Origin: Cladocopium goreaui
Lineage: Eukaryota > Sar > Dinophyceae > Suessiales > Symbiodiniaceae
DNA: 64,000 nt
NCBI GenBank assembly: GCA_947184155.2
Contig: CAMXCT020000113.1
Location: 699,182-763,181 of the forward strand
Direction of reading: 5' to 3'
A program made the position numbers and the translations under genes. A model generated the notes under the pieces. The model did not search any database, was not told where the DNA came from, and saw only the letters and a list, made by a program, of their open reading frames with translations. Below, piece by piece: positions 32,700 through 48,665 of this stretch; within the stretch, counting starts at the first letter, position 1; each line of letters begins with the position of its first letter.

Positions 32700-33330
32700 A
32701 AACACGAAGCAAAGCCTCTCTGTGTAAAAGTTGGCTGTGTGTAAACGCGTGCTGTGTGCACAAGTTTCTGTGCAATTTGTGCCTGTGTAAAGACATCTGT
32801 GTGTAAAAGCGTCTGTATGCGGTGCGTAAAACCTTCTGTGCGTAAGACTTCTGTGCGGAGAACTTTTTGTGCAAAAACCGTCTGTCTGTAAAAACTGCTG
32901 TGTATATTATTTTTTGTGCATAAAGGTTTTCTGTGCAAAAAAAATGCTAGGTAAAAACAGTTCTGGGTAAAATTTATGCGTGCAAAAAAAAGTCGGTCTG
33001 TAAAAACTTCTGTGTGCAATCTGTGTGTATAAGTTTCTCTGTGTCAAAGGTTTTTTTGTGTAGAAAAACATGTGTGAAAACTGTTCTGTGCAAAGGCTTC
33101 TCTGTGGAAAAGGTTCTGTGTGTAAAAACGCCTGTGTGCCTTGATTTATGTGCGCAAAAAAACATCTTTGTACAAAGCATTTCCTTCTTTGCGTAAAAAC
33201 CTCCGTGTAAAGGCGTCTGTGTACAGATTTTTTTTGTGCACAAAACTCTCTGTGTAAGAATATCTGCGCGTAAAAGCTGCTCTGTGTAAAGGCGTCTGTG
33301 CGTAACGCCGTCTGTTTGTAGAAACCTATC
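32700..33330. repeat. 16-bp minisatellite, array 2 (opposite orientation)
   Basis: Degenerate units of 'gcgtctgtgtgtaaaa' type, the reverse complement of the 25.5-kb array. Divergence is much higher here, so this array is probably older. Confidence 0.85.
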
Positions 33331-36564: not shown

Positions 36565-39500
36565 CTAGCCGCTTCTTGCAGCTTGAAGCCGAGCCACATC
36601 AGCCGCATTTACGGTCTGACGACCCTGCTGGGTGAGAAGGACCTGGTCCACCCTGTCCAACATGGATGCATCCCACCTGAGGCGGTAACATACCACCCAT
36701 TTGGCGACAGCCGTGGATGTAGGACGGGCCATCTTCGTCGGGACAATCACCTTGTTACCTTTCCAATAGCTGCGTAGGAGAAGCAAGAAGGGCTTGCACC
36801 TATTGCCCCAAGTCTGGCGTCCTTTCTCTGGGACTGCCTCCTCATTGTCGTACCAACGCTTCTTGTAACACCACGGCCCTTGATATCCAGTGTGTAGGTT
36901 GAAGGACACAAAAAGCTGCAGCCCTGAAATTTGGGACAGCGGCACTGAGCTGGTCAACATACCTGGCCCCCAAACTGTCCACCAGTCATGCAGCTTCTGC
37001 AAATTGACCTCTCCATACCGACGCACCAAAGATGTCGGAATTTCCCAAGCCACCGGTGCCACTTGAACCTGTGTCGGCAGTGCAACAACCTGCGGTACCA
37101 TCTGCACGGGCCGCTGTTCGGCTGCTGCCATTTTCGATGTCTGTAAGAGCACCCGAAGTATTGCGGAGTGCAACTGCCGGTAAAATTCAAGTGCACTCCG
37201 CAGTTGTGTCCACACGGCCCAAAATTCAGGCTCACGGCGGTAGTTAATGGCTTCTGCCGCCTTGTCTGTCAAATTGTTGTGCCAGTAGACCCATTGCTCC
37301 AGTGGATCCAACGCTCGATGTATTTCACCATGAGAAACAACCTTTCTGATTTGGATCAAGTCTTCATTGCCCCGCACCCAAGCATGTAGCTGTCCCCACA
37401 GATCAGAGTGAGGTCCATTGCGCCTCCACCGTTTTCGTTGCAAAGCTTTGTTGACTCCACGCACCACACTCTGACAGTCACACCACAAGCGCACACGCCT
37501 GCGGTGCATTACTGCCCAACGTATTGCATGTAATGCCGCTGTCAGCTCCGCTCTGAATGCCGTTTGGCACAAGCCTGAGACATGGCCTCCCATGAGGACT
37601 TGGTTATCTAAAATCCCAACTCCAGAAACCAAGGTCACGGCCCAGCTTGCAAATCGAAGCTTCACTTCTTTCGGAAAAGCACTTGTACCATCCATGAAAA
37701 GTTCCAGCAGCTGCGAGTCACTACCTGCTGGTGGTTCTGCTGGTGACATCCGACAAAGTCCATCAGACCGAAGCAACATCCCCGCAAAAACTTCCCACTC
37801 CGGCAACAAAACAGGCCAACCGTGATCAACCAAACAAGGAGGGAGAGTGACAAGGGCACGCTGTTGCGCAGGAGTAAGATGAGACCGACAGGCAGCAAAG
37901 TGCGGGCAAATCCAGGCCCGATGATGAAATCCATCTTTGGCAGGGCACCATGGACACTTGTCTGTTACTCCCGGCTGGAACTTCGCCCGGCCATTCTGGG
38001 TGAAAAGGGTTCCATCAAGGTGACACCGCAAGAAAACCAAGTCAGCAGGACCAAAAACCGACAGGGCTCTGTAGAGTTCTGGCAAGTCCACATTTGCCAG
38101 TCCATCAAAGGTAGATCGATGACCCAGTTCACGAGCCAACACGGAGCCCCAAGAGAGCTTAATGCGAAGAACCAACTCATCCCAGGAGATAGACATCAAG
38201 CTGAAGGTACCCAAACGGTCCTGCACTAGGCCTTGACCCCCAATGCCCCATCCAAGTCGCTGCAGTCGGGAACATAAAATAGCCGTGGGACCATTCTGGG
38301 GTAAGGGTTCACCACTCCCAGCAAACAGGCCCAGCAGAGGTTCAACTTGGTCAGACCCCAATTCCCGAACATCCCGCACCGTCTGAACAATGGACCAGGC
38401 CTCAGGGTCTGTCATCAAAGCAGAAGCAACCAAGTGCAAGTAGGGATTTGAGCCTTTCTTGTCAGCCCTGAGTGCACGCACAGCACCTGCTCGCAAAGTC
38501 TTGTAATGACATGCACCCAAATGGACAACTGAGATGCCATGAAGAGCCCGTGGCCACGCCATCATGTGTATGGCTGTCACCTTGAAGCGGTATGGCCCCT
38601 GGCTGGCACGGAGTCTGATCCACACCTGCGGCATTTTGGAGAGCCTGGCTTGAAGACTGGAGTTATGACAATGGCGACTAAAGTTCTGGTGTGCCCCCAA
38701 GTTTCTGGCTGCCAAAGTCACTGCGACAGTACTGCTGCCTCTGAAATCACGGCGAGCAGTAGCTTCTGTGGACCAGACCCTCGTCTTTGAAAGGTCAATG
38801 GCCAAGTCCAAGTGGCCAGTGAATTGCTCAATGGAAGTCCAGATCCTAGGCAAGGCCTCAGCACATCGAAACATCACACCCCAGTCATCAACAAAAGTAC
38901 GCAAGTCCACTGCCACCTCCAAACCACCCAGCCACCAATCCAAAATCCAGTCAATCATTGTCATGCCAAAAACCGACAGTGCACAACCTTCAGGAAGCCC
39001 ACAGTTGGAAGAAATGGGAAGGCCCACTGAACGACGGACTTTGAAGCGCCTAGTTTGGCCTGAAACAAACGCAACCCACGCCCGAAGGACAGGTTCGGGG
39101 AAACCCATCAAGACCAAAGCCCACCACAGTGGCTGGCGGGGGATGTTGTTGAAACACTTTTGAATGTCCATCAGGAGCCCATGCAGACCTTCCCCATTAA
39201 GATATGCAAGTTCCATTGCTGACGCAAGTTCATACCAAATGGTTTTGGCTTGTCGGGCCGGGACACCCCCATGGACACTAGCCGGAAGGAGGCTGGAGAC
39301 TGAGTGCAAGGCCTCTCGTGCACGCTCTGACGACCAGATCCGGTAAGCCAAGCTGTAAACCACCACAGGACGGAACTCATCCACACTCTGGGCATTAGGC
39401 GTCTTAGCAAGACTGGCCACAAATCCACTGGCCATTTGGATGGGCCATCCCGCCCCCCTCTCAACTGCCCTGTAAATTCCAAGAAGGGCTTCACAGGCCG

Positions 39501-39978
39501 TCTCAGGTAACGCCATCAGATCAGGTTGAGAGACCCCGTCCGGACCTCGTGCTGCTTTCGGCTTCTTATGCCTAACCGCTTGTTGAAACCTGGCAACATC
39601 CCATGGGGTGGAAGACCATTGGATGGGTTTGGCCGTCCTTTCCAAGAAACCACAAATTTGATCCCACTGGCCAGGCTGGACGTGGGAGTGTTTATTCCAT
39701 CTATCCTTCCAGACTTGGGAAAACCTTGCCAAAATGGCCTCATCTGAACTGATAGCACGTTCCTGTGTGAGCACATGACCAGGTTGAATGCCATCCACAG
39801 CAGTCAGCCAAACCTGATCTTCATGATGCACCACCACTTCAACCACCCGTCCCTCAACCACCACTGGCAAGTCATCAAAGAGCTGAGCAGGACGAGTCAG
39901 TACAACGGACTGGTCATCAGGACGTACTTCCTCAACTCCAACTTCAACCCTATCCAGAAGCGTGTCGGCTTTAGGCAA
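36565..39978 (-). CDS. LINE ORF D: reverse transcriptase - RNase H
   Basis: A 1,137-residue frame that copies element RNA into DNA during insertion. Residues ~135-420 form the RT: GPDG (145-148), RPVVV (203-207), motif A with D271, motif B G327-S335 (GLPEGCALS), motif C F362-V-D-D365. A Cys/His cluster at 675-697 (CPWC…H…C…C) looks like the zinc-knuckle-like region downstream of LINE RTs. RNase H spans ~755-915 with D763, E811, D834 and D905, plus H883. The last ~200 residues are unassigned. The frame opens just after a TGA, its first codon is TTG, and the first Met is residue 155, inside the RT domain. It is therefore probably entered by a -1 shift from ORF C, which it overlaps by 82 nt, unless a 1-nt lesion split an original endonuclease-RT fusion. 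I found no canonical X XXY YYZ slippery heptamer in the overlap. Confidence 0.93.
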   Translation of the reverse strand: MPKADTLLDRVEVGVEEVRPDDQSVVLTRPAQLFDDLPVVVEGRVVEVVVHHEDQVWLTAVDGIQPGHVLTQERAISSDEAILARFSQVWKDRWNKHSHVQPGQWDQICGFLERTAKPIQWSSTPWDVARFQQAVRHKKPKAARGPDGVSQPDLMALPETACEALLGIYRAVERGAGWPIQMASGFVASLAKTPNAQSVDEFRPVVVYSLAYRIWSSERAREALHSVSSLLPASVHGGVPARQAKTIWYELASAMELAYLNGEGLHGLLMDIQKCFNNIPRQPLWWALVLMGFPEPVLRAWVAFVSGQTRRFKVRRSVGLPISSNCGLPEGCALSVFGMTMIDWILDWWLGGLEVAVDLRTFVDDWGVMFRCAEALPRIWTSIEQFTGHLDLAIDLSKTRVWSTEATARRDFRGSSTVAVTLAARNLGAHQNFSRHCHNSSLQARLSKMPQVWIRLRASQGPYRFKVTAIHMMAWPRALHGISVVHLGACHYKTLRAGAVRALRADKKGSNPYLHLVASALMTDPEAWSIVQTVRDVRELGSDQVEPLLGLFAGSGEPLPQNGPTAILCSRLQRLGWGIGGQGLVQDRLGTFSLMSISWDELVLRIKLSWGSVLARELGHRSTFDGLANVDLPELYRALSVFGPADLVFLRCHLDGTLFTQNGRAKFQPGVTDKCPWCPAKDGFHHRAWICPHFAACRSHLTPAQQRALVTLPPCLVDHGWPVLLPEWEVFAGMLLRSDGLCRMSPAEPPAGSDSQLLELFMDGTSAFPKEVKLRFASWAVTLVSGVGILDNQVLMGGHVSGLCQTAFRAELTAALHAIRWAVMHRRRVRLWCDCQSVVRGVNKALQRKRWRRNGPHSDLWGQLHAWVRGNEDLIQIRKVVSHGEIHRALDPLEQWVYWHNNLTDKAAEAINYRREPEFWAVWTQLRSALEFYRQLHSAILRVLLQTSKMAAAEQRPVQMVPQVVALPTQVQVAPVAWEIPTSLVRRYGEVNLQKLHDWWTVWGPGMLTSSVPLSQISGLQLFVSFNLHTGYQGPWCYKKRWYDNEEAVPEKGRQTWGNRCKPFLLLLRSYWKGNKVIVPTKMARPTSTAVAKWVVCYRLRWDASMLDRVDQVLLTQQGRQTVNAADVARLQAARSG

Positions 39979-42353
39979 TCACGGCAGTCCTGAAAGACAT
40001 AGGCTAAACCTTGGGCCCGACGGTGCTTGGCATGCTGGTACCTCTGGCTAATCAAGGTTTGCTCATACTTCATAACAAACTGTTGAAAGCCCAAGAAGAG
40101 GCCCTGTGCAAAGTCCAAATCAGGGCAAAGCAACGGTAAAGTCCCCCTAAGACGAGGCTCCAAACCCTGTGCCACCCACCAGTCCCCGAAACCTCCTGGA
40201 AATCCAACTGCAGAACGGATGGCCCTCCAGGTTTCATCACAGCTGATCCGTCCACTCCAAGTTGTGACCCCCTTGGCAAGGATACGGGAGAGTGACTGCA
40301 AACGCCGAAGCTGCTTGAAGAATCTGGCATGCTGCAAGCTGACTCCCAGGTAAGAGGGTTGGACATCTCCTGGTCGGCCTTTCTTCACAGGTGCCAAGTG
40401 CTCCTTGACCTTCTTGGGTTCCAATACACTGGCTCTGCCGAGCTGACCCTTCAAAACTGGAACCCCCTGGTGACGCACCCAACACTTAGCCTGTGTTTCA
40501 ACCTGATTCCAAAATTGGGCATAGGCCAAGGAGAGGTCTCCGCTTCCAGGCGGTTCAACTTGGCAAGTCCATTCTTTTGGCCACGGAAACTGAGAAGGAG
40601 CAGGCCAGGAATCAACATTAACAACGAGGCCCTCATGGGAAAAGGTAGCCATCACCGCTGCATGGTCAGCCCAATGATCAAACTCAACGCGAACAGACAC
40701 CAAGACCCGCTGAAGTTCTGGGGAAATCCACAATTGGTCAATTCTTTTGGAACCCCTCCCCGTAGCTTCGACTGATTGACCTGTGCGCCAAGCGCGCAAA
40801 TCTTGGACCTCTCGAAAACCCAGCATATGGAGGCGACTGAGCTGCTCCAATTCCTCTGGCCCAAAGTTGAAGTCCCCACCTATGGCCCTAGGCCCAGATG
40901 CTTGGCAGCCTACCCTGTCGACCAAATCAGCCAACATGGCATCCGTTTGATACCGCGCCTGTTTGTGGGAGGCATTGCAGGGGTAGCCATACAACATGCC
41001 AACCGTGACCCAAGTATCCGCCAAGGAAACCCCAACTACTTGAACTCTCGCTGAAGAGTACACCTGGGCATCAAAAACATGGGGCAAGGGACGCGCTGGA
41101 TACTTGGAGACCATCAGAACCCCTGAGTGTACGCCTGTGTCGGTATGTTGTCTAGGCTGACATGGCGCCCCAGGCACTGCATACTTCCATGTACTACCCA
41201 GCATATTCAATCCCTTTTTGAAAGCTGTCAGGCCCCGCTGGGAAAGATGGGTTTCGGACAAAATCCAGACATCACCTGACATGTGGTTGACCTGATCCAA
41301 CTTGCCATTAAGCCCGGATGGATTGGCAATTCCAAGAGTCCATGAAGTGGCAACGGCCGGACCCGGATGCAGGGCTTCTCCAACGCGCAACAAATTGCAA
41401 AGTGCAAACAAAAGGAACCACCTTCGGAAAACTGTACAAGTCGATACAGACACGGAACCCCCAGGTACCTGCCTCTTGGTGGAAAAGGCCAAAGTCCAAC
41501 CGCCTACTTTGCCCTGCAGTAGCCTCTGGGCACACCACATTAGGCATCGTTTGGAAACCGTCCACCAGGTGAAAACAATCCACAAGGCACACTGCACGCA
41601 CTTAAGCACCTCATTGTTATACCATGCAGATCTGAAGGGTTCCCTTAAACTCAACAGCCTGCAACAAAGTCCAGAAAGGCCAAACACCCAAAACGGAGAG
41701 TGGCCTGGAGTCCATAAGGCCAAGGGCCAAAAAAGTCCAGCGCGGCCCAAAATCCACAAAACACCTGGAATGGCCCGCAGTGACAACTGAGCACACCACC
41801 TGAGGCATTGCGTAGAAACAATCCAGCTGAGAAAGACGATCCACATTGCATGCTGCACGTACTTGAGCCGTTCATGTATAGACCGTGCACCACTTCGTTG
41901 AAACCACCAACTCAGCATCTGATCACCAACTCCAGAGAAAACAAACACCGCCGGCAAACAGTGGCCTGGAATCCAAAAGGCCGAGGGCCAGGAAAGTCCA
42001 ACGCGGCCAAAAGTCCACCCAACCCTCTGCCCTGGTTCCTGCATGGTCGAACCAAACCACTGAAGGCGTTTCTTGGAGGCTACCCAACAACAAAAAACCA
42101 GCCACACTACACAACGCACACACCTGAGCACCGCAGGTTCATAACAGGCCCCACTGGATTGTGTCCTCAAAGTCCAGATCCGACAACCTGGTGCCAAAAG
42201 TCCAAAAGCCCAAGAAGGATAACAGCCGAGAGTCCAACTGGCCAAAGACAAGAAGAGCCCAATGCAGTTCAACGTCCAAATGACCCACGTTACCAATCCA
42301 AGCAGATGACCACCACATGTTGCGACCCAATCGTGCATGGCAGTCTGATGCAC
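39897..42353 (-). CDS. LINE ORF C: hydrophobic repeats + APE-type endonuclease
   Basis: An 818-residue frame starting right after the readthrough-like UGA. Residues ~25-285 are three 87-residue Trp/Cys/Leu-rich repeats. 'LLRVGEALHPGP' (321-332) resembles the start of many dinoflagellate LINE endonuclease ORFs. The exonuclease-endonuclease-phosphatase domain covers ~337-572: N344, E367, GDFN (493-496), RIDQ (537-540) and ADH with D563-H564. This enzyme nicks target DNA to prime reverse transcription. Residues ~590-818 form the linker that normally leads into RT. No AUG context was used for the start: the frame is continuous upstream with ORF B except for the UGA, and the first codon after it that could serve is GTG, with ATG six residues in. 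The catalytic set is complete. Confidence 0.92.
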   Translation of the reverse strand: MHQTAMHDWVATCGGHLLGLVTWVIWTLNCIGLFLSLASWTLGCYPSWAFGLLAPGCRIWTLRTQSSGACYEPAVLRCVRCVVWLVFCCWVASKKRLQWFGSTMQEPGQRVGWTFGRVGLSWPSAFWIPGHCLPAVFVFSGVGDQMLSWWFQRSGARSIHERLKYVQHAMWIVFLSWIVSTQCLRWCAQLSLRAIPGVLWILGRAGLFWPLALWTPGHSPFWVFGLSGLCCRLLSLREPFRSAWYNNEVLKCVQCALWIVFTWWTVSKRCLMWCAQRLLQGKVGGWTLAFSTKRQVPGGSVSVSTCTVFRRWFLLFALCNLLRVGEALHPGPAVATSWTLGIANPSGLNGKLDQVNHMSGDVWILSETHLSQRGLTAFKKGLNMLGSTWKYAVPGAPCQPRQHTDTGVHSGVLMVSKYPARPLPHVFDAQVYSSARVQVVGVSLADTWVTVGMLYGYPCNASHKQARYQTDAMLADLVDRVGCQASGPRAIGGDFNFGPEELEQLSRLHMLGFREVQDLRAWRTGQSVEATGRGSKRIDQLWISPELQRVLVSVRVEFDHWADHAAVMATFSHEGLVVNVDSWPAPSQFPWPKEWTCQVEPPGSGDLSLAYAQFWNQVETQAKCWVRHQGVPVLKGQLGRASVLEPKKVKEHLAPVKKGRPGDVQPSYLGVSLQHARFFKQLRRLQSLSRILAKGVTTWSGRISCDETWRAIRSAVGFPGGFGDWWVAQGLEPRLRGTLPLLCPDLDFAQGLFLGFQQFVMKYEQTLISQRYQHAKHRRAQGLAYVFQDCRDCLKPTRFWIGLKLELRKYVLMTSPLY
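41499..42281 (-). repeat. three tandem 261-bp repeats inside ORF C
   Basis: Protein-level repeats start at residues 25, 112 and 199, exactly 87 residues apart, with a fourth start near 286. Each begins W(T/I)(L/F)…G(L/V)…, continues with W-P-x-A-x-W-x-P-G-type sequence and later a Cys-rich 'VLKCVQCALWIVF'-like segment. The DNA copies are diverged but have kept the frame and contain no stop. Each unit holds one or two helices hydrophobic enough to cross a membrane. Confidence 0.85.
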
Positions 42354-42368
42354 AACTGGGCACCGTCA
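42326..42368 (-). promoter_or_regulatory. candidate stop-codon readthrough element (UGA-CGG + hairpin) between ORFs B and C
   Basis: ORF B ends GAG-TGA-CGG (stop at 42,368-42,366) and the same frame continues as ORF C. After the spacer CGGTG, CCCAGTTGTGCAT pairs with ATGCACGATTGGG: 13 uninterrupted base pairs (11 Watson-Crick, 2 G-U) around the 9-nt loop CAGACTGCC. UGA followed by CGG or CUA plus a 3' hairpin is the known type II readthrough layout of several plant RNA viruses and alphaviruses. The hairpin is seen directly; its activity is inferred. Confidence 0.65.
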
Positions 42369-43649
42369 CTCTTGGCGAGGACGTTTGGCAAGCAAAGTTT
42401 CAAATTGACACATCTGCTTGCTGAACATATTGTCCAGCATGGTCTGCTGGTGGTTCACCTGCTGTCGGAACTGCTCCTGGAAGGCATCTTGGAATCCCTG
42501 GATGGTGGAAGCCTGAGCTGCAATGGCACTTTCAAAGTGGGTTCCTTGTTGCTGAATTTGACCCCTGAGTTCTTGCATCTGTGTGGCGGTCTCCTGAGCA
42601 TTCTTCTGCGTTGCAGCGGCAATGACCTGAGTTTGGCCTTGAAGCTCTTGGAACTGTTGCTCAAGGGCAGCCACCCGACTGGCTTGGCCTTCTTCAGAGT
42701 CCACCTCCATTGTCCCTTTGGGGATCTGTGCCATCACTTCAGCAATGACCTTCTGCGTCATGTCCTCAAGAGGGTTGCCAATCTGGAACGTGGCTGTCTT
42801 TGAAGGCAAACGGCTGGCTGCTTTGGCCCATGGGTCATGCTGCTGGATATAGTCCTGTTCCCCTGCCTTGGAAATCATAGACTCCGTGGTGGAAGTTGCT
42901 ACCACCTTTGGCACAACCTTCTCAGGCACCGAGGCTTCATCTTCTTTGGCAATCATGACATCACCGTGAGCCATGCGGATGACCTTTTTTGGAGGTTCCT
43001 GCACTGCTTGCACCCTGAACATCAATCCATGGACGTGTGTCTTTGCTGCCACGGCATGAATTGGTTTTGCAACCCATCCAATGGAGTGCAACATCTGAGT
43101 CACTGAGGTCTGCAGTGTGCCAAAGTCAAAGGGTCCCACCAAAAAGGTCTGTCGCTTGCCTGGCGGCAGGAAAGTCTGGCCTGGTCGCAACTTGGAGAAG
43201 ACCTCCGCTGCATGTTCGGCTCTGCACCTCAATCCCATCTTAAGACCTAGACGGGCCATGCCGACAACGTTGGCAACTGTCTGCCTTTGGACAAGCAGCT
43301 GAGCTTCATCTACCTTGGGCATCCAGATGACAGTGAACTCATGAGACGGATGTCGGCCATCGATTGACTTCGGTTCAAGAAAAACCCCATCATGTCCTGA
43401 GAAATGTTGAACCTGCATCTGCATGCATTCAGGCAATCGCATATGGGCTGTAAACAGCTCTGCTCGATCTGGCGCAGCGCTCTTGAAGTCCAACATCAAC
43501 CATTGTTTCCCCCAAACTTCCAAAACTGGGGACTCCATCGGGTAATCTGGCGACTTATGCCAGCTTTCACATCCACAGCACTCCTGGTCAAGGCACTTTT
43601 GAAGAGGAGGTACCTGTGCAAAGATATGCAACAACGGATGCATGACCAC
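42366..43649 (-). CDS. LINE ORF B: coiled-coil ORF1-like protein
   Basis: A 427-residue frame in the same frame as ORFs A and C. A Cys-rich patch lies at 19-31 (C…CCxC…H), and a basic/hydrophobic mixed region at ~105-225 may be an RRM-like or other small alpha/beta fold (inference only). Residues ~315-415 form a long Gln/Ala-rich heptad pattern, a probable coiled coil, and the end is basic (KRPRQE). LINE ORF1 proteins are typically coiled-coil, RNA-binding and trimeric, which fits its place between the accessory and the replication enzymes. The first ATG is codon 3 (43,643). A separate start there or readthrough of the upstream UGA would both work. No gag-type CCHC knuckle was seen. Confidence 0.8.
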   Translation of the reverse strand: MVMHPLLHIFAQVPPLQKCLDQECCGCESWHKSPDYPMESPVLEVWGKQWLMLDFKSAAPDRAELFTAHMRLPECMQMQVQHFSGHDGVFLEPKSIDGRHPSHEFTVIWMPKVDEAQLLVQRQTVANVVGMARLGLKMGLRCRAEHAAEVFSKLRPGQTFLPPGKRQTFLVGPFDFGTLQTSVTQMLHSIGWVAKPIHAVAAKTHVHGLMFRVQAVQEPPKKVIRMAHGDVMIAKEDEASVPEKVVPKVVATSTTESMISKAGEQDYIQQHDPWAKAASRLPSKTATFQIGNPLEDMTQKVIAEVMAQIPKGTMEVDSEEGQASRVAALEQQFQELQGQTQVIAAATQKNAQETATQMQELRGQIQQQGTHFESAIAAQASTIQGFQDAFQEQFRQQVNHQQTMLDNMFSKQMCQFETLLAKRPRQE

Positions 43650-43655
43650 CTCAGA

Positions 43656-43658
43656 TCA
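43656..43658 (-). promoter_or_regulatory. in-frame UGA between ORFs A and B
   Basis: Context CCA-TGA-TCT-GAG. The frame is open on both sides and ATG follows five codons after the stop, so either termination-reinitiation or readthrough could express ORF B. Only weak downstream pairing was seen (GAGGT with ACCTC about 40 nt on). This stop lacks the CGG/CUA context of the second one. Confidence 0.4.
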
Positions 43659-46600
43659 TGGCACTTGGGTTTGATCACGGAAAATCATCGCCTTCACCAC
43701 GCATGTTGGGATGGATTGGACAGAGCATCCTGGTTGCAGTGGGGCTCTTTGAACACGCATAGCACCAAGCTGGATAAGGTGACCATCAATCAACAACGGC
43801 TCTGAATTGACAGCACACACCATTGGGATTCGTTCTGAAGATACCTGAAATCCAGTGGCAGGAACACCCGGTGAATCAACGACAAAGAAGGCCAATGGCC
43901 CAGAAGACAATGGATTGCCAGCCTTCAAGTACGGCTCAATGGTATGCACCGACACAACCACTACCCCAACCGCAGTAGGTCCAACCTGCGACAGACCAAG
44001 CTGAGGAAGCAACTGACCCTGTTCGCTCTGGAAAATCCCTGTCTCAAGTCTCAAAGAAGCTGGGTCCACACTGAGCTGGGTCGACAATCCCTTGCCCTTG
44101 CCCTTGGACGGCCGGGATTTGTGCTTCTTTTGTCCTACTGGCTTGTCCTTGTCTCGCAGTTCAATTTGGGATTGCAACTCAGAAGGCTTGATGAACATGT
44201 ATGGTGGCCTGGATTGATTTCCCAACCACTTCAACTCACGCCACTGGTTGTCAGAGTCCAGGGCCTTTCCAATTCCATCTTCACCCAAAGCCTTGATAGC
44301 CAAAGTGGCACGACCCATCGCCTCTTGTGTGGGCACTCCATGTTTGCACAACAAGTCTGCCAAACGTGCCTGGACTGTGAGACCCAAACCTGCCAACATA
44401 GGACGGAGACATGGTTCTGGAAGTTGCGCAGCAAAGTCCTTTCTCATCTGATCAGAAACCCATTGCAGAGAACACTGGTCATCAACCAAAAGCCAACCCC
44501 ACAACAGATGGCGAACAAAGCACAAGGCCAAAGCACCACAGTAGCCACCAGGCACAAAACCGGGTTCATGAGCTTTCCAGACACCTCTCGCCCCTCCCCG
44601 GTAAAGGTCGATCGCCCGACACAGAGAGTCCAGGACGGGCTCAAAGTACACAGTAACCGCCAAGGTATGAAGCTTAGCACCAACCGTGTCAATCCTCCAA
44701 ACCAACGGAATCCAATGACCCCCCAAGAGGACCGCAGAAACCACAGTTGTCATAGGACGCAAGGCAGCGACCAACTGGGACCATGTTGCAGGTACATCCT
44801 GTTGCACAAGACCTGAAATCAAAAGTGGATCCCAAACGGTGACACATTGATCTGCATCAGTGTTATCTGCAATCTGGTGAAGGCCAAAGAGGAGTTCATC
44901 GTCACCCCATACCGGTCCTTGCATGGCCAAAACACTCTGACGGGTGACATTGGGCATGTCCGGATGACGCACTGCACTAAGACGCCCTAGGTCATTCATG
45001 GGACCAGGCTCGAATGCATCGGATGCTCGGACAAAGTGCAAAAAGGCATCAACATCAAGACAGCATGGGACCTGCTTTTCGGCATACAGTTGTTCAGGAG
45101 TCCAGGCTGGGGAAACCAAGGAAACCAGAGCATCATTAGGAAACGTCTGAGATGGATTCATGGGTTCACCATTGACTCTGAGTTGAAAATCCTTCACTGC
45201 ATTCCCTAGCTTGACCTCGGCCGCAAGCAATTGCTCACCTGTAGACCCTGGGGAAACACGAACCAGAACATCCGATTCATCTGACAGCGGCCTGGAGAGT
45301 GTGATCAGGCCAGCCACTTCAGTCTCTTCAATGGGATCCTCAGCTGTCGGTGCACATGGCATGGTGGCAGGTGGCCATTTGAGTCGGCAAGCATGAATCA
45401 CCTCAGCCATGTATTCTTGAAACAACGGCAAGGGGTTACAGGGCGGCAATTCCAAGGCCAAGTCCAAAACCCTGCGAATGTGTGCAAAAATCCAAAACCC
45501 CATCAAAGGTGCCACTGCTTGTCCAACTCCTGCCATTGCAAGTCTAAGGTTACTCCCCATATTGACTTCTGGGTGACACCCCATGAGTGCCCACATCTCA
45601 ATTGGGTGCAAGTACCTGGCATGGCGCATGCAAACGTTCATGTGCACCTGTGTAGTGCCCAGAGGAATGAGAACACCAACCATCCCTTTTTGTTTGAGGC
45701 GCTGCTCCGACAGTGCTGCTCGGCAGCCACAAGCACAAGTGTACATCTGATTTCCTGCACTGTGAAGGAGTGTCGGCAGTTTCTCATGGAGTTTGATAAA
45801 CGACTCATCAATTCCACCTGCAGCATATTGATAGTACTTGGACAACTCATACAGGTTGAGATTCAACTGGGCTTGATCATATTGGTGCCAAACTCCAAAC
45901 TCTGCAATGAGGTCACGGATGCATGGGACGGATGTTTCCTGAGGCATGTCTTGCAGTTCACACATCGGAAGCACTGGTGCAGTGAGCACTGCAACCCATC
46001 GGTCCCTTTTGCAGCACCAAGAATTGGCCAGCCTCAGGATGGTTTGAGTCATCCGATATCCTGTTGAGACACAAAACTGACGGAGGACTTCCTGCGCCTG
46101 AGCATCTCGAAGAACTTCTGGGGTACACTCGAGGACCAAAATGGCCGCTTGCAACAACCATGCGACAGACAAAGTCTTGGGTAGGGACTGTGCCCTCGGA
46201 TCTGCCATGCCCCGCCTGTCTCCCAAAACTGAGTGCGGCTGACAAGCTATGCCTGAGCAAACAACTCCATGGAAGTGTCCTTGTGCCAACAACTTCCTAA
46301 GCACAGCAGTGTCCATGAGGTCCCCACAGAAAAAGGAAGCATCCGGATGCAAGACAGAAAACAGAGGACCCCATCGTTCATTCTGATCAACCCCAGCACC
46401 CACCGTAAATCCAAGGCGGGGAGCAGTGACAGAGAAACCCCCTAGGCCCGAACACAAGTCAGTCACCCTCAGCAAGGACAAACGGTCACACGGTGGCACA
46501 GGTGTAACAAACGATGCATCATCCACCTCCAAGTGCAACGGCCATTCAGATGTCACCAGCAGATCGACACCAGCGATAGTTCCTGCATGTGGGATACTTC

Positions 46601-46769
46601 CATGGACCCAAAGTTTATATCCCCTTCGATCCTGGCTTTGAAGTAGGTGCCAATTTCCTTGAGAATCATAACAGATCAAAGACAAAACCAATGAGGTTCT
46701 TTGCCCCTTAGTAAATGCCCAATCCATTACGAGCACCACAACGAGAACTAAACTCCAGGGGGTCTGCAT
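43656..46769 (-). CDS. LINE ORF A: C5-cytosine DNA methyltransferase polyprotein
   Basis: A 1,037-residue protein beginning at an ATG 36 nt from the element's 5' end, with a hydrophobic N-terminus (residues 5-15). Residues ~100-435 are a complete C5-MTase: motif I DLCSGLGG (104-111), D128 (motif II region), motif IV SGIACQPHS with catalytic C176, E214 (motif VI), KRDR (254-257, motif VIII region), a Cys-rich patch CACGC (345-349) in the target-recognition region, HPIEMWALMG (388-397) and motif X GQAVAPLMGFW (416-426). The usual Pro before the catalytic Cys is Ala. Residues ~498-555 follow a ubiquitin-like pattern. H685-W, D694 and C744-G resemble a Ulp1/papain-type protease. A basic Lys/Gly stretch (879-894) follows. 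Likely role: methylation of element or target DNA in the nucleus; the protease could process the polyprotein (inference). Confidence 0.9.
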   Translation of the reverse strand: MQTPWSLVLVVVLVMDWAFTKGQRTSLVLSLICYDSQGNWHLLQSQDRRGYKLWVHGSIPHAGTIAGVDLLVTSEWPLHLEVDDASFVTPVPPCDRLSLLRVTDLCSGLGGFSVTAPRLGFTVGAGVDQNERWGPLFSVLHPDASFFCGDLMDTAVLRKLLAQGHFHGVVCSGIACQPHSVLGDRRGMADPRAQSLPKTLSVAWLLQAAILVLECTPEVLRDAQAQEVLRQFCVSTGYRMTQTILRLANSWCCKRDRWVAVLTAPVLPMCELQDMPQETSVPCIRDLIAEFGVWHQYDQAQLNLNLYELSKYYQYAAGGIDESFIKLHEKLPTLLHSAGNQMYTCACGCRAALSEQRLKQKGMVGVLIPLGTTQVHMNVCMRHARYLHPIEMWALMGCHPEVNMGSNLRLAMAGVGQAVAPLMGFWIFAHIRRVLDLALELPPCNPLPLFQEYMAEVIHACRLKWPPATMPCAPTAEDPIEETEVAGLITLSRPLSDESDVLVRVSPGSTGEQLLAAEVKLGNAVKDFQLRVNGEPMNPSQTFPNDALVSLVSPAWTPEQLYAEKQVPCCLDVDAFLHFVRASDAFEPGPMNDLGRLSAVRHPDMPNVTRQSVLAMQGPVWGDDELLFGLHQIADNTDADQCVTVWDPLLISGLVQQDVPATWSQLVAALRPMTTVVSAVLLGGHWIPLVWRIDTVGAKLHTLAVTVYFEPVLDSLCRAIDLYRGGARGVWKAHEPGFVPGGYCGALALCFVRHLLWGWLLVDDQCSLQWVSDQMRKDFAAQLPEPCLRPMLAGLGLTVQARLADLLCKHGVPTQEAMGRATLAIKALGEDGIGKALDSDNQWRELKWLGNQSRPPYMFIKPSELQSQIELRDKDKPVGQKKHKSRPSKGKGKGLSTQLSVDPASLRLETGIFQSEQGQLLPQLGLSQVGPTAVGVVVVSVHTIEPYLKAGNPLSSGPLAFFVVDSPGVPATGFQVSSERIPMVCAVNSEPLLIDGHLIQLGAMRVQRAPLQPGCSVQSIPTCVVKAMIFRDQTQVP

Positions 46770-46805
46770 GGACAGCTCTACGACTGGAACGTCCCTGGGC
46801 CAGAG
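46770..46805 (-). other. LINE 5' leader, 36 nt
   Basis: CTCTGGCCCAGGGACGTTCC… to the ATG of ORF A. The frame is open through it. No dinoflagellate spliced-leader sequence is present. An internal promoter, if any, must lie within or upstream of these few bases or in the coding region. Confidence 0.7.
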
Positions 46806-46882
46806 CTCTGAAAAATATTAGTCAGTTGGGATAATTATTCCCATATATGGAAGAATAAAAAATGTTCCAAACCACCAATCAG
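46806..46882. mobile_element. MITE-A copy 4, right part, beginning with the right LINE target-site duplication
   Basis: 46,806-46,820 repeats CTCTGAAAAATATTA exactly. 46,821-46,882 then completes the MITE with 'gtcagttgggataattattccc' and the end AAACCACCAATCAG. The right terminus has one mismatch (T for C) to the family end. Confidence 0.9.
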
Positions 46883-47945: not shown

Positions 47946-48104
47946 ATCCAAGTTCTGGCATGCATGCATGCAACTCCCCAAGGCGCATCACGGAATTATA
48001 TATGTCCTGGTGACGCACGGAAGCACTGGTGCAGAGTACATCATGGATTCTTACTTACAGATTGCAGATTACATCGCGCATTTAAGGCCTGGATACTTCC
48101 AGGT

Positions 48105-48665
48105 TACAGCACGCAGTCCTGGTGATGCAGGGATGCATTCCCCCAGGTTACATCAGGCACCTATGAGACCTGGTGATGCACGGATGCATACTTCCAGGCT
48201 ACAGCACGCAGCCCTGGTGATGCAGGGATGCATTGCCACAGGTTACATCAGGCATCTAAGGCCTGGTGATGCACGGATGCATACTTCCAGGTTACAGCAC
48301 GCAGTCGCAGGGATGCATCGCCCCAGGTTACATCAGGCACCTTTAAGACCTGGTGATGCACGGGTGCATACTTCCAGGTTACAGCATGCAGTCCTGGTGA
48401 TGCAGGGATGCATTGCCACAGGTTACATCAGGCATCTAAGACCTGGTGATGCACGGATGCATACTTCCAGGTTACAGCACGCAGTCCTGGTGATGCAGGG
48501 ATGCATCGCCCCAGGTTACATCAGGCCCCTTTAAGACCTGGTGATGCACGGGTGCATACTTCCAGGTTACAGCATGCAGTCCTGGTGATGCAGGGATGCA
48601 TCGCCCCAGGTTACATCAGGCATCTAAGACCTGGTGATGCACGGATGCATACTTCCAGGTTACAT
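48105..48665. repeat. 92-bp tandem repeat inside an intron, six copies
   Basis: Units alternate 'cctggtgatgcacggatgca', 'tacttccaggttacagca', 'cctggtgatgcagggatgca' and 'ccaggttacatcaggca', i.e. two diverged ~46-bp halves. Starts are near 48,170, 48,264, 48,349, 48,444, 48,536 and 48,628. The plus frame is open across it but is an artefact of the repeat. Confidence 0.92.

Follow-up and report, generated by a model that had tools for sequence, protein, structure and literature searches.

Here we report a conserved stop codon and an adjoining RNA pseudoknot in a long interspersed nuclear element (LINE) of the dinoflagellate Cladocopium goreaui (Symbiodiniaceae, the family of coral symbionts), found in a 64,000-nucleotide stretch of contig CAMXCT020000113.1 (the window). 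The element is a SymbioLINE-Dnmt LINE—one open reading frame (ORF1) with a cytosine DNA methyltransferase (DNMT) domain lies upstream of a second (ORF2) with endonuclease and reverse transcriptase (RT) domains—and the two ORFs meet at a single UGA. From the comparison of genomic copies, we put the probability at roughly 0.87 that the conserved UGA and the covarying pseudoknot are a signal for programmed readthrough from ORF1 into ORF2. The same idea had been raised by a first-pass annotation made from the letters of the window alone; its core withstands the refuting tests that came with it, and the readthrough subtype that it proposed does not hold.

The stop codon in question, TGA 42368-42366 on the minus strand, separates frames B (43655-42366) and C (42365-39897), which share one frame with each other and with frame A (46817-43656); frame D (39978-36565), also on the minus strand, lies in a different frame. 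As the first-pass annotation had it, CGG follows the TGA directly, a 13-bp stem with a 9-nucleotide (nt) loop begins 5 nt past the TGA, and DNMT, endonuclease and RT domains flank the stop: Pfam places PF00145 in frame A, PF03372 in C and PF00078 in D, with RNase H in D just under the Pfam cut-off (23.8 vs 25.8 bits). Treating B as an ORF of its own proved mistaken, however. The TGA between A and B is not shared—W stands at that point in the database proteins P0002-P0005—and in 19 of the 26 other long copies the reading frame stays open over more than 429 codons before the junction; A and B are a single ORF1, cut in the window copy by a private nonsense codon, and B is its 3' end and no separate gene. 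The break between C and D (an overlap at 39897-39978) is likewise private to the window copy, because ORF2 is unbroken in 12 of the 26 other copies, where it is open for 1,719-1,954 codons. By these alignments the copy in the window has decayed, while open copies of its family exist elsewhere, and the signal belongs to the family. Five near-identical copies on separate contigs (L030-L034), with both ORFs open in at least L032, are probably a recently active subfamily.

Copies were sought in the whole genome (1.17 Gb, 6,202 contigs). DNA matches to the element gave 27 long copies, the window copy included; a protein search for the end of ORF1, with 150 of 528 candidates scored, gave 42 copies of at least 42% identity, of which 41 were read (the window copy and L009-L048) and one (C5882) was omitted, its match ending before the stop. 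TGA stands directly after a Glu codon in 41/41 copies, and none has a sense codon at the site. For the last 14 of these copies the site was located by a pattern that itself contains TGA, yet it lies exactly at the end of the protein match. Database proteins agree in the main: among 19 relatives of B, 14 stop at the matching Glu and P0019 at a Glu slightly further on, P0002 runs on with W, and P0011, P0013 and P0017 end short of the site. The conserved UGA is, on this comparison, the true end of ORF1. By comparison, the terminator of ORF2 varies (TGA in 4, TAG in 2 and TAA in 1 of the 7 fully open copies).

The same 7 copies bear on a different explanation, namely that UGA is a sense codon in this host, reassigned or read as selenocysteine. 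A precedent exists in a syndinean relative of dinoflagellates, described as having reassigned all three stops (PMC6394959), but reassignment is rejected here on the absence of any other in-frame UGA from the fully open copies (2,932-3,150 codons each) and on the UGA that ends ORF2 in 4 of them. A search of the window copy between positions 33000 and 48000 against Rfam found no selenocysteine element at E values up to 1; two unrelated matches lay far below threshold. We regard the chance of UGA as a sense codon as close to nil.

What follows the UGA is only partly fixed. The next codon is TGG in 14 copies, AGG in 12, GGG in 8, CGG in 4 and CGA in 3, and CUA in 0/41; the base at +4 is accordingly T in 14, A in 12, G in 8 and C in 7. 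Because this codon varies while G is invariant at +5 (41/41) and nearly so at +6 (38/41), CGG is not the conserved part, and what the family keeps is UGA-NGG plus the pseudoknot. The earlier expectation of a UGA-CGG conserved across copies is borne out for the UGA and fails for the CGG.

Within the window copy, stem 1 is formed by CCCAGTTGTGCAT pairing with ATGCACGATTGGG at 13/13 positions (two of them G.U). Because the hairpin loop pairs downstream, the structure extends to 42308, and the predicted fold is an H-type pseudoknot of which the hairpin described earlier is one half. Its geometry recurs: stem 1 begins 5 nt past the UGA in 41/41 copies, loop 3 measures 10-11 nt in 37/41, and stem 2 occurs in 14 distinct versions, 12 of them fully paired (39/41 copies, with loop 3 allowed 3-25 nt). 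Among the 27 long copies, 25 have the exact geometry (stem 1 at least 11/13, stem 2 7/7) at a distance of 5 nt from the TGA; elsewhere it turns up at 18 of 540,120 placements, 15 of these in the single copy L027.

The pairing is maintained by changes on both strands. Over 35 distinct sequences, 94.1% of cells pair, compared with 80.2% when shuffled and 31-50% when the pairing is slid; the covariation score reaches 0.469, where shuffles give 0.194 and 0/500 of them score as high, and double changes occur in 13 of the 20 pairs. Since kinship can inflate such counts, the changes were also mapped on an ORF1-end tree of 26 copies. On this tree, pairing is preserved through 33 double and 51 single-side changes and broken by 15, whereas slid stem-1 controls give 1-5 double and 60-71 breaking changes; the compensatory changes looked for in other copies are indeed there. 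A pseudoknot might also serve as a packaging or RT-recognition element that merely follows a normal stop, and LINE RNAs do need cis elements. Such a role, however, leaves unexplained the unvarying 5-nt spacing from the UGA (41/41), the fixed identity of the stop and the stop-free linkers in the same frame described next, and we consider it extremely unlikely.

Between the UGA and the endonuclease lies a linker that is anything from 117 to 417 codons long, depending on the copy, and whose frame 0—the frame of ORF1—is open throughout. Counted from the UGA to an (H/N)PGP motif in 25 distinct linkers, frame 0 has 0 stops in 5,656 codons; frames 1 and 2 have 179 and 157 stops, each in 5,634 codons, and about 205 per frame are expected from shuffles. 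Of the 27 long copies, 23 encode the endonuclease in frame 0; the other four (L014, L021, L030 and L031) have it in frame 2, presumably through a later indel. No conserved in-frame AUG for ORF2 was found among the long copies: the first lies anywhere from codon 5 to 161, the only one before the endonuclease in L010 is at codon 142, and L027 (itself decayed) has none. Differences by codon position in the linker run 1903:1593:2220; protein-level selection was set aside as too weak a proof of translation, and the stop-free frame is relied on instead. By eye, the linker looks hydrophobic and W-rich.

This frame relation counts against termination followed by reinitiation, which we think unlikely and nevertheless take as the best of the rival explanations. 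It holds that ribosomes stop at the UGA, that the pseudoknot holds the 40S subunit or the 80S ribosome, and that ORF2 is restarted nearby, as proposed for SART1, a non-LTR (long terminal repeat) element described as requiring a structure 3' of its stop-start site (PMC5972666). An AUG does overlap the UGA (UGAUG or AUGA) in 24/41 copies, as in reinitiation systems, but these AUGs open frame 2, while ORF2 is mostly in frame 0 (for the endonuclease, 23 copies vs 4), and the frame they open soon closes: among the 27 long copies it runs for 4-17 codons in 16 and for 60-154 in 11. As said, no in-frame AUG is conserved, and L027 does without any before the endonuclease. In a variant of this explanation, a non-AUG start might be used directly at the stop, in frame 0—calicivirus reinitiation is described as tolerating non-AUG starts (PMC5972666). 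Reinitiation does not require ORF2 to share frame 0 with ORF1, however, and hence leaves that sharing unexplained.

A small intron that removes the UGA, giving one long frame in the spliced mRNA, is very unlikely. Introns of dinoflagellates can be non-canonical, and one deposited Cladocopium goreaui gene model (P0023, 602 residues of which match copy L021 at 100%) joins both ORFs of that copy and skips the stop and the pseudoknot. After the stop, however, L021 matches P0023 in three different frames, so that the model seems to have been patched together by a gene-caller across a copy in decay. An intron has no need of a frame 0 that is open straight from the UGA, as it is in 25/25 distinct linkers, and it leaves the covariation of the pseudoknot unexplained; LINEs, moreover, move via RNA and are expected to lose introns.

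Under the readthrough reading, the pseudoknot would lie near the mRNA entry of the ribosome when the UGA is in the A site, and termination would be slowed, blocked or disfavoured there. A near-cognate tRNA, probably for Trp, Arg or Cys, would occasionally be accepted at the UGA. Termination, with the ORF1 protein as its product, would remain the usual outcome, and a minority of ribosomes would yield an ORF1-ORF2 fusion, as with gag and gag-pol. This fusion is the predicted source of the endonuclease and the RT. Just before the endonuclease, a GEAx(H/N/V)PGP motif recurs across the copies and database relatives. The usual 2A (StopGo) consensus is D(V/I)ExNPGP; set beside it, GEAx(H/N)PGP lacks the D(V/I)E, and the match is limited to the final PGP, sometimes NPGP. 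The motif may or may not free the ORF2 enzyme after readthrough.

If readthrough is right, a DNA methyltransferase is tied to an RT at a set ratio, and the element offers a naturally covarying set for asking how pseudoknots defeat termination at UGA. The signal is directly testable: dozens of diverged natural variants in one genome carry the same stop, the same spacing and mostly the pseudoknot. To our knowledge, the dinoflagellate lineage has been little studied for recoding. The translation of LINE ORF2 is itself still debated, with reinitiation (PMC5972666) and an unknown, unconventional initiation (PMC5009743) both put forward in the papers cited.

We lean towards a wider version of this reading, in which a whole dinoflagellate LINE clade makes its endonuclease-RT only as a fusion to the DNMT-bearing ORF1, by way of a UGA and an H-type pseudoknot—a retrovirus-style readthrough signal in a non-LTR element. 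The UGA and the shared frame would predate the split of subfamilies whose ORF1 C-terminal regions now share 27-38% identity, and some of these would since have replaced the stop by a sense codon, turning into elements with a single ORF. Five pieces (L049-L053) were taken from the rows of the ORF1-end search at 24-38% identity; the piece from L051 does not include the stop. The remaining four all have TGA at the stop, followed by AGG, AGG, TGG and TGG, and in all four ORF2 is in frame 0 up to the PGP motif; because they keep these features and differ in structure, the pseudoknot's sequence looks younger than UGA-NGG and the shared frame. In L052 (G000:C2124), the open frame with the ORF1 end runs to 2,949 codons, about twice the usual ORF1.

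Database proteins add single-ORF forms. A protein search for ORF2 relatives scored 7,991 candidates, with 120 of 138 proteins listed; 105 ORF2 relatives carry the PGP motif, and ORF1 is joined to at least 7 of them (P0077, P0085, P0111, P0113, P0117, P0119 and P0126), and long upstream parts are also present in P0129, P0131, P0137 and P0139. P0117 passes the stop site without a clear counterpart residue. These fused proteins come either from natural forms with a single ORF or from mutated copies; possibly they represent lineages that swapped readthrough for direct fusion. Further afield, 28 stretches of IMG/VR contigs and 29 of GTDB contigs fit a search pattern, with 0 confirmed as relatives, and phage records gave 0 matches.

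Several observations weigh against readthrough, or against its generality, and we gather them here. In contrast to the 0/41 genomic copies with a sense codon, some predicted database proteins have W at the stop site (P0002, P0077, P0085, P0119 and P0126) or L (P0111 and P0113). The W could be UGG, or UGA under another code; as far as the predicted proteins go, a fused product is evidently allowed, yet the wider group does not have the stop throughout. Among the deeper pieces, L049 and L050 have in common a hairpin of another kind, some 6 nt past the UGA (judged by eye on folds), and the folds of L052 and L053 show no clear hairpin there; the fold z values of L049, L050, L052 and L053 are -2.07, 0.75, 0.72 and 1.75.

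The family has its own irregularities. Stem 1 is imperfect in L020, L024 and L025 (11/13), L028 and L041 (10) and L035 (8), and stem 2 in L024, L035 and L043 (6/7); loop 3 is odd in L035 (3 nt), L038 (8 nt) and L044 and L048 (23 nt each). The window copy carries the two lesions noted above, and its single-sequence fold is modest (z -1.57, 9/200 shuffles as good), as is the mean hairpin z of the family (-1.02 over 35 distinct copies, with controls at -0.19). Single-sequence folding was rejected as too weak by itself to serve as evidence; the first-pass claim that chance is unlikely is upheld by the rarity of the exact pseudoknot geometry elsewhere, and not by the lone fold. Protein-level constraint on the linker is weak, with a ratio of nonsynonymous to synonymous change (dN/dS) of 0.68 from one informative pair. 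To these we add the AUGs that overlap the UGA, the +4 C of a leaky UGA context in just 7/41 copies, and a spacer of 5 nt where known readthrough cases are given as having about 8 (PMC3542737). The chief caution comes from the Candida albicans retrotransposon Tca2, whose UGA and possible pseudoknot are reported to be insufficient for readthrough in S. cerevisiae (PMC2194720).

Table 1. Positions in the window of the parts of the SymbioLINE-Dnmt copy and of its proposed readthrough signal.
Feature	Position	Strand	Basis or remark
ORF1, 5' part (stop-to-stop frame A), cytosine DNA methyltransferase domain	43659..46817	-	PF00145, E 1.5e-10
In-frame TGA inside ORF1, private to window copy	43656..43658	-	Sense codon in relatives; decay lesion, outside the signal
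ORF1, 3' part (frame B, in frame with A)	42369..43655	-	14/19 database relatives end at matching Glu
UGA, end of ORF1, proposed readthrough codon	42366..42368	-	TGA in 41/41 copies
Spacer CGGTG, 5 nt	42361..42365	-	+4 free, +5 G invariant, +6 G 38/41 in family
Stem 1, 5' strand, CCCAGTTGTGCAT	42348..42360	-	Pairing, covariation
Loop 1, 2 nt	42346..42347	-	Pairing model
Stem 2, 5' strand, GACTGCC (in hairpin loop)	42339..42345	-	Pairing, covariation
Stem 1, 3' strand, ATGCACGATTGGG	42326..42338	-	Pairing, covariation
Loop 3, 11 nt	42315..42325	-	Pairing model
Stem 2, 3' strand, GGTGGTC (beyond the hairpin first annotated)	42308..42314	-	Pairing, covariation
Fast-evolving linker, frame 0 open from UGA to pre-endonuclease motif	41382..42365	-	No conserved AUG in family
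Conserved GEALHPGP motif just before endonuclease, 2A-like end	41358..41381	-	Recurs in copies and database relatives
ORF2, endonuclease part (rest of frame C)	39897..41357	-	ORF and Pfam
ORF2, RT/RNase H part (frame D)	36565..39978	-	ORF and Pfam; overlaps C at 39897-39978

A 188-bp tandem repeat of 3.1 copies (48093-48664) adjoins the element, and several further arrays lie elsewhere in the window.

Among the open-licence PMC literature, of which few papers were examined beyond their listing, we found no description of a LINE with a stop-readthrough signal. TRE5-A was considered as a precedent and rejected, the "stop codon suppression" of its paper being, where described, a host-gene tool and not a property of the element (PMC4559204). 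The closest non-LTR comparisons are SART1 and LINE-1, which, like the present element, have two ORFs on one RNA—SART1 with a structure downstream of the stop—but are thought to reinitiate (PMC5972666); here the frame is shared, no in-frame AUG is conserved, and a start codon of the SART1 type, opening ORF2 at the stop, is missing, the overlapping AUGs leading into frame 2. Tca2 resembles the present case as a retrotransposon with a UGA between two ORFs and a possible pseudoknot 3' of it; in contrast, it is an LTR gag-pol element, and covariation does not figure in its abstract (PMC2194720).

Viral readthrough signals have been sorted into types (PMC3542737), and the first-pass annotation had assigned this one to type II, the type of alphaviruses and tobraviruses. 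The UGA, the downstream structure and the CGG of the window copy and three others fit that assignment; the CGG/CUA feature described for the type does not, with CGG in 4/41 copies and CUA in none, and the extended stem-loop about 8 nt downstream is replaced here by a compact pseudoknot after a 5-nt spacer. In layout—stem sequences aside—the gag-pol junction of gammaretroviruses such as murine leukemia virus (type III) is nearer, with one frame, one stop and a compact downstream pseudoknot (PMC3542737). It differs from the present signal in its UAG, in its 8-nt spacer and in belonging to a retrovirus and not a LINE; its 3'-adjacent G or purine-rich octanucleotide, as described there, has no match in the mixed +4 bases of the family. 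Because type II's CGG/CUA is missing, and so are the UAG and the +4 context of type III, we place the signal in neither type.

Nearest of all is the published SymbioLINE-Dnmt itself (PMC5890265), a LINE of Symbiodiniaceae with a DNMT in ORF1 and endonuclease, RT and RNase H in ORF2, for which target-site duplications and the lack of a poly-A tail are further marks. That description, in contrast to ours, has separate ORFs, and the word "readthrough" occurs 0 times in its main text; new relative to it are the shared frame, the fixed UGA and the pseudoknot.

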